NCBI GenBank assembly: GCA_030583665.1
Contig: CP129469.1
Coordinates: forward strand, 2,037,043 to 2,101,042
DNA length: 64,000 bases
Origin: Candidatus Jettenia sp. AMX2
GTDB taxonomy: Bacteria; Planctomycetota; Brocadiia; Brocadiales; Brocadiaceae
Reading direction: 5' to 3'
Position numbers and translations under genes: made by a program. The notes under the pieces are model-generated. The model ran no database searches, had not been told where the DNA came from, and saw nothing but the letters and a program-made list of their open reading frames with translations. Shown here in pieces: positions 2,393 to 34,833 of this stretch (the first letter of the stretch is position 1; each line of letters opens with the position of its first letter).

Positions 2393-3673
2393 ATGCGTAA
2401 CCGAACAATTGCCCGCGAACTGGCCCTTCAAGCCCTCTATCAACTTGACCTGCGTGGTAACGAAATTTTCGATGAAATCAAGACGTTCTGCAGAAACAGT
2501 ACAGAAAAACAGGATATCTGTGAATTCGCCCTCTTGCTTATCGATGGCTGCCGGTCACATCTCCGGGAAATCGATGAAAAAATATCAAGCGTTACCGAAC
2601 ACTGGGAACTGAACCGTATGGCAGTTATTGATAAAAACATCCTGCGTCTGGGTGTCTACGAACTGTTATACAGGGAAGACATTCCGCCAAAAGTTTCCAT
2701 TAACGAAGCCATTGAACTTGCAAAAAAATTCAGTACAAAAAATTCAGGAATTTTTGTAAATGGAATTTTAGACAGGATCTATACTCAGTTTGGAAATGGA
2801 AAGTTAAGAGAAAAAAAATACGGTTCCCTCCTTTACGATGTACCACAAATACAATACGGTAATTCTGACCTTCATATCCACTCAACGTATTCAGACGGCA
2901 CCTATACGCCAGAAGAAATTGTTGACGAGGCAATTCGTCTCGGCGTTTCTACCATATCAATTACCGATCATGATACAACAAAAGGTGTTGATCTTGCAAT
3001 CCGCTACGGAGAGAAGAAAAATCTTATTATTATCCCGGGTATAGAAATCTCTTCGTACCAGTCCCCTTCCGAGATTCATATTCTTGGATATTTTATTGAC
3101 ACCCGCAACGCTTCCTTGCAAAAAATATTAAAACAGGCTCATGAAGACAGGAGAAAACGTATTCACCTTATTGCAGAAAAATTACGCAGCCTGAATATCA
3201 ACATTGATCCGGATGAAATTTTAGCATTGGCAGGCCTGGGATCCCCGGGGAGGATGCATGTTGCGGAAGCATTGTGGAAGCATAATTATTGCAGCACCAT
3301 CCTGGAGGCGTTTGCAAAATATATAAGCGACAGCGGCCCCGCATACGTTCCGAAAAAAACACTGACCCCCCGGCAGGCAATAGAAATAATCAGAGAAGCA
3401 AAAGGGGTAGCGGTTCTTGCACATCCGGGATTAACACAGAAAGACCATCTTATTGAAGAGTTGGTAAAATATGGTTTGCAGGGAATAGAAATATACTATC
3501 CATCACACTCATCACAGGATATAAAGAAATACAGCAAACTTGCAGAAAAATATAATCTGGCTGCAACAGGAGGGTCAGACTTCCATGGAGAAAGAAAAAT
3601 AGATACCCCTATCGCAAAAGTCACTATACCAGGCGACCTGGTTAAAAAACTGAGACAAAAATGTCCGCCCTGA
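2393..3673 (+). CDS. NusB antitermination factor fused to a PHP-domain phosphoesterase
   Basis: Residues 1 to about 130 are a complete NusB, the RNA-binding antitermination factor that acts with NusE/S10 on boxA during rRNA transcription (N-terminal RxxARELALQALYQ, C-terminal PPKVSINEAIELAKKF and FVNGILD). After a short linker, residues about 153-426 form a PHP phosphoesterase of the TrpH/YciV (RNase AM) type. All metal-binding motifs are visible: DLHIHSTYSDG, ITDHDT, GIEIS, LAHPG and GSDFHG. One uninterrupted frame encodes both, with no internal stop. Normal NusB is about 140 residues. RNase AM in E. coli trims 5' ends of rRNAs, so joining it to an rRNA antitermination factor makes functional sense, but that is inference. 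A nusB symbol alone would understate the protein. Confidence 0.93.
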   Translation: MRNRTIARELALQALYQLDLRGNEIFDEIKTFCRNSTEKQDICEFALLLIDGCRSHLREIDEKISSVTEHWELNRMAVIDKNILRLGVYELLYREDIPPKVSINEAIELAKKFSTKNSGIFVNGILDRIYTQFGNGKLREKKYGSLLYDVPQIQYGNSDLHIHSTYSDGTYTPEEIVDEAIRLGVSTISITDHDTTKGVDLAIRYGEKKNLIIIPGIEISSYQSPSEIHILGYFIDTRNASLQKILKQAHEDRRKRIHLIAEKLRSLNINIDPDEILALAGLGSPGRMHVAEALWKHNYCSTILEAFAKYISDSGPAYVPKKTLTPRQAIEIIREAKGVAVLAHPGLTQKDHLIEELVKYGLQGIEIYYPSHSSQDIKKYSKLAEKYNLAATGGSDFHGERKIDTPIAKVTIPGDLVKKLRQKCPP

Positions 3674-31045: not shown

Positions 31046-31125
31046 TGTTTTGTCTGAAAAAGGAGACAAATATTATTTTCTTGATTTTCAGATAAACTTC
31101 ATTTATATACGAGTATGAAAATATT

Positions 31126-31262
31126 CCGATAAAGGCAAACCCTGAGTGATCGGGGGACGCAATGGAAAGGGTCTTCGTAGACCGGTCGAACGGTTTACGG
31201 AAAAGATAGCCTTACTGCCGAAGATGTTTCTTCATTACCATCTTTGCAGTAAGGCTTTTTTT
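31126..31262 (+). promoter_or_regulatory. Cyclic-di-GMP class I riboswitch (GEMM) with terminator platform
   Basis: The hallmark GGCAAACC (31134-31141) is followed by a hairpin capped by a GTGA (GNRA) tetraloop and then GGGACGCAA. A second hairpin (GGTC/GACC) follows, then the ATAGCC and TGCC closing strand, which pairs with the opening GGCA. The G before CAAACC favours c-di-GMP over cGAMP. The 3' strand of the aptamer (31208-31226) is also the 5' arm of an intrinsic terminator whose other arm is 31239-31256, followed by a T run. Aptamer closure and terminator are therefore mutually exclusive, which predicts that c-di-GMP relieves termination. The controlled gene starts at 31375. Confidence 0.85.
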
Positions 31263-31374: not shown

Positions 31375-32473
31375 ATGAAGAAATGGATGAGTCTGAAATT
31401 CATGCTCGTACTGGCCCTGTTCCTGAATGCAGGAATAGCCTTCGCCAATGACTACCCCCCCCCTTTGTCCTGACCAAGGTAGCGGAATTGGTGGTGTTGA
31501 AGTTTGGGCAGCAGAAAATTGTACAGAAGGTGATTGTGAAAATCCGGCAACAACATGCAACGGCGATTTTACCATCGAACTGATAGAGAGAAGCGAAGAT
31601 GGCGACCTAATTACCTTCGAGTACAAGGTCTGCAAGATTACACAGAGCGCCGATTTAAGCCACTGGTCAATTTCCGATGCGGGGATTACCTGCCTTGGCG
31701 AAGATGAAAATGGTATTCCTTATGAACTGAAAGATTTGATTGTGGGAGCCACGCTCAATGGCGTTGAAATTGATATCAATTCAAAAGATGAGTTTGATAT
31801 CGGTCTTGACCCCACAACCCAGGTCACAGGGATCAAATTCAATGTAGGTTTTGATGCAGATGAGGAAGAGGATGGCTGTGCCACCTACACCATCACCTTT
31901 GACAAAAGCAAACTTGAAGAAGGCATGACGCTGGGAGAGGGCTGTGTCCTCGCAGCAACAAAGGCGGGGAACCAGGACATCGAAAGAAGCGATAGGAACT
32001 CACCCGGCTACGTTTGCATTATCGGGCCAGTCTGTGTAGAAGATGCAGGTGAAGAAGAAGAGGTTTGCTGGAAAAAAGAAACGGCCTGGGCGGCTGGCAC
32101 ACGCTACGTAGAGCGTGGCAACTGGGCAACCTATATTACCTATGTTGCTGATAGTACTGTAACCTTGTATGCTGGCCAGACAATGGAGGCAGGAACGGTT
32201 CATTTCTCAGCACCTAGCAATGGCATGATAACCATCACCATTACCCTCAATCCTGGCTGGCGCTTCTATCAGGATGAGGAAAATCCGGATGAGGAAAACG
32301 TACATATCCAGGATTATGGAACCGCACCAGGCGGTAACCCCAGCCCCGGTGGTTTCGCTCATAAGGCCCGTGCAACAGAAAGTCCGTTTAGCATTGATGT
32401 ATCGTTGAATGTTTACTATGGAGTGCATGTGGTTGTGGAACGGGAAGTCGAGTGTGAAGAAGATGAAGCATAG
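31375..32473 (+). CDS. Secreted Cys-rich acidic protein, interrupted at a run of nine C
   Basis: A GGAG site precedes ATG 31375, which opens a classic Sec signal peptide (MKKWMSLKF then a hydrophobic core ending AGIAFA). The frame breaks after residue 33 at a TGA. In the +1 frame a 341-residue open frame (from 31448) continues to 32473. The two frames meet in a homopolymer of nine C (31455-31463); with eight C they would join into one protein of about 365 residues. The mature part is acidic, has scattered Cys, and contains a DLSHW-type segment seen in bacterial surface proteins, then Gly/Pro-rich and Glu-rich ends. Function unknown. It is controlled by the upstream c-di-GMP riboswitch. The break is either phase variation or a sequencing indel. 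Confidence 0.7.
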
Positions 32474-32684: not shown

Positions 32685-34442
32685 TTATTTGTAAACCGTC
32701 ACCGAATCCATCCCCACGTTGCCTGCTGCATCGTATCCCTTTGCCGTAATAACATGTGCACCACCCGATTCCTTTCGGGTGTTCCAGTTGTACGTCAGGC
32801 TGTTTTGGCCGTATACCGCCCTCTTCAGGTCGTTATCAATATACAGCTCAATTACCTCAACACCAATATTATCCGAGGCCGTAATGTGTATCTTCTGTGG
32901 ATGCCTGACATACGCACCGCTCCCTGGCTCGTTTATAGAAACCGTTGGCGGGACCGTATCCGACGGATTGCTCACAGAGACAAAAATGGTGTTTGATTGC
33001 CCCATATTGCCTGACGGGTCATATGCCTTTGCCTCCAGAGAATACATTCCGTCAGGGTATTGAGTTGTATCCCAATGAAAATTATAGGGAGCAGTCGTAC
33101 CGGTTGCATAAAGCGAACCGTTCAGATACAGCTCCACCTTTACAATTCCTGCATTATCGGTGGCTGAAACCATTACCGTGACACTGCCATGAATCACAGC
33201 GCCGTCTGCAGGGGCTGTTATTGCTACATCGGGAGGTGTGGTGTCCGGTTCCTGCCAGGTATTGGTTGCGGCAAGAAGGCTTTTATAGACGTTTATCCTT
33301 CCATGGCCATAATAGGGGTCGAACCCGGGGGCGCCGAGGTCGTCCGCATTTTGTGTTATGAAATCAACCACCATGGCATTGCTCAGTCCGGGATTTACAG
33401 AGAAAAGAAGGGCGGCGAGGCCGGCGGCAATGGGAGAGGAAAACGACGTACCGGATGCAGACCGGTACCCGCCGTCCTTGCCGGTGGTATAGATTGAAGA
33501 ACCAGGGGCAGCGATATCGATCCAGTCACCGTAGTTTGAAAAACTGGCTATGGCATCGCTGGAGGTCGTCGCGGAGACGGCAACTGCGTTATCACAAGCC
33601 GCCGGATAAACAGGTGTGCTTGAACCGGCATTCCCTGCACTGGCAAAGAACACAGCCCCCTTGTTCCATGCATAATTTACCGCATTCTGCAGGGTGGAGG
33701 AAGAAGACGTGCCCGAAAAGCTCATATTAATAACCCTTACGCCATGGTCGGCAGCATAGATAATTGCCTTGGCCATGTTTGAATAGGTAGCCCGGCCGGT
33801 TGAAGGGTCGGAGATCACCAAAGGCATTATGGGGTTCTCCCAGGCAACGCCGGCAACCCCTTTTGCATTATTCGTCATGGCAGCCGCAGCGCCTGCTACC
33901 GATGTACCATGACCCCGAAGATCATTGGTATCCGTATTATTGGAGAAAAAATTGTAGCCGTCCAGGATCTTGCCGGAGAGGTCCGGGTGGGTTAAATCTA
34001 CCCCGCTATCCGCAATTGCAATCGGTATATCATACGAACCGGTGCTGATATACCATCCGCCCGGGGCGTGTATCTTCGGATGGTGCCACTGGCTGGAATA
34101 CCAGGGGTCATTCGGGATAACCGTCTCATCGGCCAGATGGTTATATTCAACAAAATCAATATGCGGGTTTCTGGAAAGGGCGAGTCTGACCTTTTCCAGT
34201 GCATGCGCAGGAACCTTAATGTGTTTGACCCTGATTTGGGGGATCTCTCCGATAACGGTGGCATTGCTCCCCTTCAGGATCTTGTCCATCTGTTCACCGG
34301 TAACCCCTGCCTTGGGCTGTACCAGGAGTTCGTCCGGTACAAAGGCAATGCTCTTTGCCGCATAAGCGTTTGCAAGACAAAGCACTGCAACAAAAACAAT
34401 CCCCAGAAAACACCTTAATCCGGAACGTACTGCGTTTTCCAT
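32685..34442 (-). CDS. Secreted subtilisin-like (S8) serine protease with two Ig-like domains
   Basis: A pre-pro-protease of 585 residues. Signal peptide about 1-28 (hydrophobic core ending ANAYA); an inhibitor-type prosegment about 35-105; a peptidase S8 domain with Asp in ADSGVDLTHP near 145, His in RGHGTSVAG near 178 and Ser in SGTSFSSPIAAG near 334. The C-terminus carries two tandem Big_9-type Ig-like domains (about 395-485 and 490-585), each starting DTxPPxVxI, typical of surface display or substrate binding. An AGGAGG eight bases before the ATG at 34442 fixes the start; the frame extends 33 codons upstream into the riboswitch and is not used. The gene is under a c-di-GMP riboswitch. Confidence 0.93.
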   Translation of the reverse strand: MENAVRSGLRCFLGIVFVAVLCLANAYAAKSIAFVPDELLVQPKAGVTGEQMDKILKGSNATVIGEIPQIRVKHIKVPAHALEKVRLALSRNPHIDFVEYNHLADETVIPNDPWYSSQWHHPKIHAPGGWYISTGSYDIPIAIADSGVDLTHPDLSGKILDGYNFFSNNTDTNDLRGHGTSVAGAAAAMTNNAKGVAGVAWENPIMPLVISDPSTGRATYSNMAKAIIYAADHGVRVINMSFSGTSSSSTLQNAVNYAWNKGAVFFASAGNAGSSTPVYPAACDNAVAVSATTSSDAIASFSNYGDWIDIAAPGSSIYTTGKDGGYRSASGTSFSSPIAAGLAALLFSVNPGLSNAMVVDFITQNADDLGAPGFDPYYGHGRINVYKSLLAATNTWQEPDTTPPDVAITAPADGAVIHGSVTVMVSATDNAGIVKVELYLNGSLYATGTTAPYNFHWDTTQYPDGMYSLEAKAYDPSGNMGQSNTIFVSVSNPSDTVPPTVSINEPGSGAYVRHPQKIHITASDNIGVEVIELYIDNDLKRAVYGQNSLTYNWNTRKESGGAHVITAKGYDAAGNVGMDSVTVYK

Positions 34443-34443
34443 T

Positions 34444-34504
34444 GTCCACCTCCTGTTAAAAATTGTTTCTTTCTGCCTGGAAACAACAGGCCCATGAGGT
34501 GGAC
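34444..34504 (-). promoter_or_regulatory. Shine-Dalgarno-sequestering hairpin of the subtilase leader
   Basis: In the mRNA the ribosome site region AACAGG-AGGTGGAC (34457-34444) is perfectly complementary to an upstream GTCCACCT (34504-34497) and CCTGTT (34490-34485), with a six-base bulge on the 5' arm. This 14-bp hairpin buries the AGGAGG. It begins just after the c-di-GMP aptamer, so it is the natural expression platform for translational control. Confidence 0.8.
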
Positions 34505-34509
34505 CAGCG

Positions 34510-34600
34510 TTTCTTCGGCAACCCGGCCATCCTGAATGCACATTCAGGACCCGCGGCTTTGCGTCCCCCGGTCACCCGGGGTTTGCCCTTTTCGGAAACG
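34510..34600 (-). promoter_or_regulatory. Cyclic-di-GMP class I riboswitch (GEMM), near-canonical
   Basis: The minus strand shows the full GEMM-I pattern: GGGCAAACC, a six-base-pair hairpin with GTGA tetraloop, GGGACGCAAAGCC, a second hairpin (CCTGAATG/CATTCAGG), and the closing GGCCGGGTTGCCG. The G preceding CAAACC is the base that selects c-di-GMP over cGAMP. It lies about 70 bases upstream of the subtilase ATG, with the sequestering hairpin between. This is the second such riboswitch within 3.5 kb. Confidence 0.93.
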
Positions 34601-34833
34601 AAAATACCATGGTTTTTTCATCTGATACATAATTATCGGTCTAATATGATAAATGTTTACCGGATTTACCATATTTACAATTTGCTATTCTCATGTATAA
34701 TACCCGTAAAAGGGCACGGCAGAAAAAACAGCGCGGATGAATGCCATACCTAAGCGTTTAATTTCAAAGTCTGAAAAACCCGGCCAGCTTACATTGTTTG
34801 AACCATTTTACTATCAGTACCTGCTGCATAGTA

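Follow-up and report, generated by a model that had tools for sequence, protein, structure and literature searches.

A class I c-di-GMP riboswitch of Candidatus Jettenia predicted to mask the Shine-Dalgarno sequence of a secreted subtilase gene, with related leaders in other bacteria

The class I c-di-GMP riboswitches Vc1 and Vc2 of Vibrio cholerae (RF01051) have the same aptamer and the same contact residues, G20, A47 and C92, as the RNA described here. In the class I RNA these three residues contact c-di-GMP, and no terminator or anti-Shine-Dalgarno (anti-SD) sequence is reported to be apparent between Vc1 and gbpA (PMC4744006). In the case of Bacillus thuringiensis Bc1, SHAPE-MaP indicated that c-di-GMP pulls the ribosome-binding site (RBS) and the start codon into structure, and that study describes sequestor/antisequestor control, with masking of the Shine-Dalgarno (SD) sequence, as a general mode for class I c-di-GMP riboswitches (PMC11218506). 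According to the same study, Bc1 has two terminators, and its effects on the transcription and the translation of mcpE are opposite.

Secreted proteases have also been connected with this second messenger. According to two papers (PMC6366702, PMC6447587), c-di-GMP in Clostridioides difficile lowers ZmpI (PPEP-1) through a class I OFF riboswitch and raises the ZmpI substrates CD2831 and CD3246 through class II ON riboswitches; ZmpI is a metalloprotease with known substrates, and its control is by termination, the class I switches being transcriptional there. The LapD/LapG control of Pseudomonas LapA also makes adhesin display dependent on c-di-GMP and a protease, but through a protein receptor and at the post-translational level, not through RNA (PMC3032545).

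The leader described here lies in a 64,000-nucleotide stretch of the Candidatus Jettenia sp. AMX2 genome, referred to as the window. In contrast to what is reported for Vc1, it has an explicit, recurring sequestor/antisequestor pair ahead of a protease gene. It would resemble Bc1 in that the RBS is predicted to be drawn into structure by c-di-GMP, but it has no conserved terminator and its gene encodes an S8 protease. With the C. difficile system it would share a riboswitch-mediated drop in a secreted protease and rise in surface proteins, both predicted in the window; here, however, the protease is an S8 subtilase, the control would be by SD masking, and both switches are of class I. The features of the leader and its gene are as follows.

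34632-34659, minus strand: weak sigma-70-like promoter match (9/12) 5' of the leader, a consensus match only
34595-34600, minus strand: P1 5' strand CGUUUC, partner of GAAACG at 34513-34508
34513-34596, minus strand: class I c-di-GMP (GEMM-I) aptamer, an Rfam covariance-model match with G20, A47 and C92 all canonical
34508-34513, minus strand: P1 3' strand GAAACG, doubling as the 5' strand of the predicted antisequestor, and thus the shared, switching strand
34497-34504, minus strand: anti-SD GUCCACCU, from SD pairing and folding
34489-34494, minus strand: UGGGCC, predicted antisequestor partner of GGUCCA (34505-34500), thereby covering part of the anti-SD
34480-34485, minus strand: UGUUUC strand, partner of either the P1 3' strand (antisequestor) or GAAACAA (sequestor)
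34463-34469, minus strand: GAAACAA, upper arm of the sequestor hairpin
34444-34457, minus strand: SD strand of the sequestor, AACAGGAGGUGGAC
32685-34442, minus strand: 585-aa secreted S8 subtilase, comprising a fervidolysin-like propeptide, an S8 domain and two Ig-like domains

The protease gene starts at ATG 34442, with the SD AGGAGG 6 nt ahead of it. Its product matched peptidase family S8 (PF00082) with 178.8 bits (cut-off 21.8) and its N-terminus resembles a signal peptide by eye, in agreement with the secreted S8 protease that the first-pass annotation had placed downstream of the aptamer. A longer frame starting with GTG at 34541 was rejected, as this start lies inside the aptamer, and it is at ATG 34442 that an SD and an N-terminus resembling a signal peptide are present. 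A scan with the protease found no relatives in viral contigs.

We propose that this leader is a translational OFF riboswitch of the sequestor/antisequestor type for the secreted protease, and assign to this reading, based on sequence comparison and folding models, a probability of roughly 0.77. Without c-di-GMP, the P1 3' strand (GAAAC...) would pair with the downstream (U)GUUUC to form the antisequestor, which would also cover part of the anti-SD; the SD would then be open and the protease made. The binding of c-di-GMP would close P1 and withdraw the GAAAC strand from the antisequestor, and the released anti-SD would pair with the SD, halting translation. That the protease is controlled at translation, by masking of the SD, had been predicted earlier, and as a prediction this is supported by the sequence, by folding and by 15 related leaders; the present analysis adds the probable OFF direction upon ligand binding and the competing antisequestor, which would couple the aptamer to the SD.

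The complementarity behind the aptamer on which the first-pass annotation had built its proposal is exact: GUCCACCU (34504-34497) and CCUGUU (34490-34485) form 14 bp with AACAGG-AGGUGGAC (34457-34444), and six unpaired nucleotides, CAUGGG, bulge out of the anti-SD strand. The energy of this duplex, -21.7 kcal/mol, was matched by 1/2000 and 0/1000 dinucleotide-preserving shuffles of the spacer, and the folding z-score of the sequestor segment was -3.0 (1/200 shuffles equally good). The SD hairpin by itself is not a switch, and the aptamer is not needed for its formation. What would connect the two is the antisequestor, composed in the window RNA of GAAACG/UGUUUC and of an inner helix that takes up part of the anti-SD, GGUCCA/UGGGCC (-14.2 kcal/mol). 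In the ViennaRNA folding model, which omits the tertiary contacts of the aptamer and the ligand, a window transcript ending before the SD had an antisequestor probability of 0.93-0.99 and a P1 probability of 0.00, and forcing P1 in it cost 6.5 kcal/mol and abolished the antisequestor. The outer helix alone was at the chance level (383/1000 shuffles as good), and a competing helix sharing the P1 strand stood out in the window only with the inner helix included. In the full-length RNA, the unpaired probability of the SD was 0.54 with the antisequestor forced, 0.20 with P1 forced and 0.20 without constraints. Because the full-length RNA at equilibrium masks the SD even without the ligand, regulation in the window would require kinetic control or an antisequestor of greater stability than the model gives it.

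To compare leaders, orthologs of the subtilase were sought in one-genome-per-species collections, and their loci were scanned with Rfam. Besides that of the window, 15 distinct leaders had a GEMM-I aptamer ahead of a subtilase ortholog (46-57% identical where aligned), with one aptamer and one subtilase each. Two of them, G016 and G032, are from the window's own family, the latter identical in sequence to the leader L059, which belongs to a MAG named Ca. Brocadia; this shared membership points to the Ca. Brocadia family (anammox) for the window's organism. The others include L056, from a MAG named Deltaproteobacteria, and L058, from a Desulfobacterales MAG; ten of the 15 come from genomes that share the class or phylum of the L058 genome, and L183 is from the phylum of a Thermodesulfovibrionia MAG (L057). 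Loci met twice were counted once (L059 = L100, L056 = L162, L058 = L164, L057 = L182), the contig-edge fragments L177 and L179 were dropped, the second matches L113, L115 and L117 were left out of the Rfam scan, and L118, which has in-frame stops, was left out of the trees.

The aptamer with its canonical contacts and the two competing pairings are present in the window RNA and recur in most of the 16 leaders. The SD pairing was equalled by at most 50/1000 shuffles in 7/16 leaders, was borderline in L058, L169 and L175 (56-69/1000), and was at the chance level in G016, L165, L166, L167, L170 and L180. For the outer helix of the antisequestor, that is, the P1 3' strand with its downstream partner, at most 50/1000 shuffles were as good in 12/16 leaders; the early test with five leaders had been weak, only G016 passing it (3/2000), and the result became strong only with the leaders added later. 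When partners were swapped between leaders, the leader's own partner gave a mean of -14.4 kcal/mol for the SD pairing, compared with -11.5 kcal/mol for those of other leaders (0/20,000 permutations as low), and -10.4 versus -8.2 kcal/mol for the antisequestor (3/20,000), a significance that is inflated by the relatedness of the leaders; with four near-duplicates removed (12 leaders), the counts were 5/20,000 and 18/20,000, respectively. By eye, the antisequestor strands pair as GAAACAAG/CUUGUUUC in L165-L167 and L169, as GAAACAGG/CCUGUUUC in L170 and as GAAACGGGAA/UUCCCGUUUC in L174 and L175, and the anti-SD and SD as CCCUUCGG/CCGGAGGG in L171 and UCCUUCGG/CCGGAGGA in L172. The TGTTT core of the UGUUUC strand is invariant in the five-leader alignment, and aptamer positions 22 and 45 covary (C-G in seven and U-A in nine of the 16 leaders). 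When one or the other state was forced in folding, the antisequestor gave the more accessible SD in 12/16 leaders (mean unpaired probability 0.50, versus 0.19 with P1). The exceptions were G032, which has no stable antisequestor, L166 and L167, which have an insertion of about 165 nt between the anti-SD and the SD, and L174, in which both forced states gave equal SD openness. We infer both the binding of the ligand and the direction of the regulation.

It is unlikely, given these pairings, that the leader is a translational ON switch or no switch at all, with a constitutive SD hairpin and an aptamer that acts otherwise or is a relic. The masking of the SD in the full-length fold of the window, equal with and without P1, would fit such a leader, as would the missing antisequestor of G032 and the retention of only half an aptamer in L057. 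However, in most leaders it is precisely the 3' strand of P1 that enters the antisequestor, and the partner of that strand covaries; the residues that contact the ligand are conserved; and in G016 and L171 the SD is open in the free RNA at equilibrium (unpaired probability 0.57 and 0.76) and shut when P1 is forced (0.01 and 0.00).

The window contains another riboswitch, on the opposite strand.

31124-31222, plus strand: second GEMM-I aptamer, terminator type
31209-31262, plus strand: intrinsic terminator (-23.8 kcal/mol, U7 tail), the 5' arm of which is the P3 3' strand of the 31124 aptamer

Because the 5' arm of this terminator is a strand of the aptamer itself, the ligand should block termination, and the 31124 switch is predicted to be ON with the ligand. 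By eye, the P3 strand is directly used in a terminator by 8 of the 14 GEMM-I riboswitches of the genome, and in three more (L005-L007) an additional copy of the strand intervenes. Against this background, the protease leader could be thought to contain a hairpin that terminates transcription too, and one terminator-like match is indeed found in it at 34505-34489 (stem GGUCCA../..GGGCC, tail UGUUGUUUCC), as is a U5 run directly after UUGUUUC/GAAACAA. We consider transcriptional control decidedly improbable, as the match does not exceed chance (0.8 expected against 1 found), its tail falls short of a clean U run, and the stem before U5 is A/U-rich. Moreover, a hairpin followed by a U run does not recur by eye in L056, L058, L165-L172, L174, L175 and L183, whereas the SD pairing recurs in most leaders. 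This supports the earlier claim that the mechanism differs from that of the 31124 riboswitch, the protease leader being predicted to act by SD masking and the other by termination.

The near-canonical class I aptamer of the first-pass annotation was borne out. The RF01051 search, suggested there as a check, gave 72.1 bits on the minus strand (gathering score 35), the top of the 14 GEMM-I matches in the genome, and RF03167 (c-di-GMP-I-GGC) gave 69.6 bits (gathering score 59). The contact positions were mapped onto the window RNA through the structure line of the model; G20 and A47 are present in 14/14 of the aptamers of the genome, and C92 in 13/14, L010 having U. To our knowledge, no ligand has been established for the c-di-GMP-I-GGC variant, the name of which presumably originates from a G at position 47. 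Hypr cGAMP synthases carry a characteristic Ser, and cGAMP-type (GEMM-Ib) riboswitches have A at position 20. In each of the 11 GGDEF matches in the genome the Asp of the GHxxGD-type motif is retained, and none has a Hypr-like Ser. As the contact residues are canonical and this Ser is absent from the GGDEF domains, c-di-GMP is the expected ligand. That the aptamer would sense the ligand of the GGC variant or cGAMP instead is very improbable: cmscan retained RF03167 as the best of the clan at this aptamer, yet with fewer bits than RF01051, and the GGC label was rejected on these scores and on A47, for which the RF03167 consensus has G in the cmscan alignment, as was cGAMP specificity on G20, which is not A. 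cGAMP riboswitches are stated to be marked by one pocket nucleotide (PMC9481103).

All 16 leaders have A47; G20 is replaced only in L056 (by A) and C92 only in L058 (by U), so that each of these two is present in 15. L056 (2793-2890), with A at position 20, the cGAMP-type change, is otherwise alike, and its genome has three GGDEF matches, none with a Hypr-like Ser. Position 92, which contacts the ligand directly, is U rather than C in L058 (2857-2935) and L010. In the L057 ortholog (about 2910-3000), the 5' half of the aptamer alone is followed directly by the RBS, a riboswitch truncated either naturally or in assembly. One genome (G518) has a pair of subtilase genes separated by about 10 kb, L169 with a riboswitch and L163 without, and both loci have group II intron matches.

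At the gathering score, no aptamer was found in other homologs, among them L060, L163, L168, L173, L176, L178 and L181. In the first tree, the riboswitch bearers found by then fell in one set of eight rows (100/95), together with two non-bearers and the truncated L057. In the second tree, the presence and absence of the riboswitch needs eight changes (shuffled mean 10.5; as low in 40/500). As this tree is poorly resolved near the window and eight changes are needed, a single origin of the riboswitch is not shown. The neighbouring genes are unlike among the five distinct loci compared, which indicates that the riboswitch and the protease behave as a unit.

Other c-di-GMP elements were noted in the same genome and family. 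A GEMM-I aptamer of the same genome (L001, 1501-1577) lies ahead of a GGDEF gene, a possible feedback on c-di-GMP synthesis, and four genomes of the window's family (G020, G022, G024 and G031) have 42-48 GEMM-I matches each, very large numbers for one riboswitch class. In L111 (746-849; G030), a terminator-type GEMM-I riboswitch precedes a different S8 subtilase; c-di-GMP may thus act on two kinds of subtilase in the family, perhaps in opposite directions.

The gene at 31375, behind the 31124 switch, and the protease gene are convergent, and since the former is predicted to be ON and the latter OFF with the ligand, their responses to c-di-GMP would be opposite. The signal-peptide start at 31375 stops after 32 codons, and the main frame resumes in another register: a C9 tract at 31455-31463, longer than any other run of C or G in the window, divides this secreted protein, through either phase variation or an assembly error. 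The 31448-32470 protein matched no Pfam family, and a search of the 32 other genomes among the family's 33 turned up no relative. By analogy with C. difficile, one can imagine that c-di-GMP turns the secreted protein ON and the convergent protease OFF, so that attached cells display an uncut surface protein, the class I RNAs on both genes being an independent invention of the CD2831/ZmpI logic, and that the switch was kept across the wider protease family while its contacts drifted (A20 in L056, U92 in L058), one lineage perhaps turning to another dinucleotide. As a whole, we regard this scenario as doubtful.

The aptamer and the SD-masking mode are already known; as far as our searches go, a recurring unit with this protease and this antisequestor is undescribed, and no description of a c-di-GMP riboswitch-subtilase unit or of an anammox c-di-GMP riboswitch was found in the open literature, subscription papers lying mostly outside that search. 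With this leader, class I c-di-GMP riboswitches would have a recurring case of OFF control at the level of translation that is easy to test. Cells with high c-di-GMP, that is, sessile ones, would stop producing the protease, and the recurrence of the RNA and protease unit in distant bacteria suggests that surface-attached cells shut it off. In anammox-type bacteria, whose growth in granules and biofilms matters for wastewater treatment, a secreted protease would thereby be linked to c-di-GMP, and if the substrate of the protease is a surface protein, the adhesin/protease logic of C. difficile would have arisen here separately.
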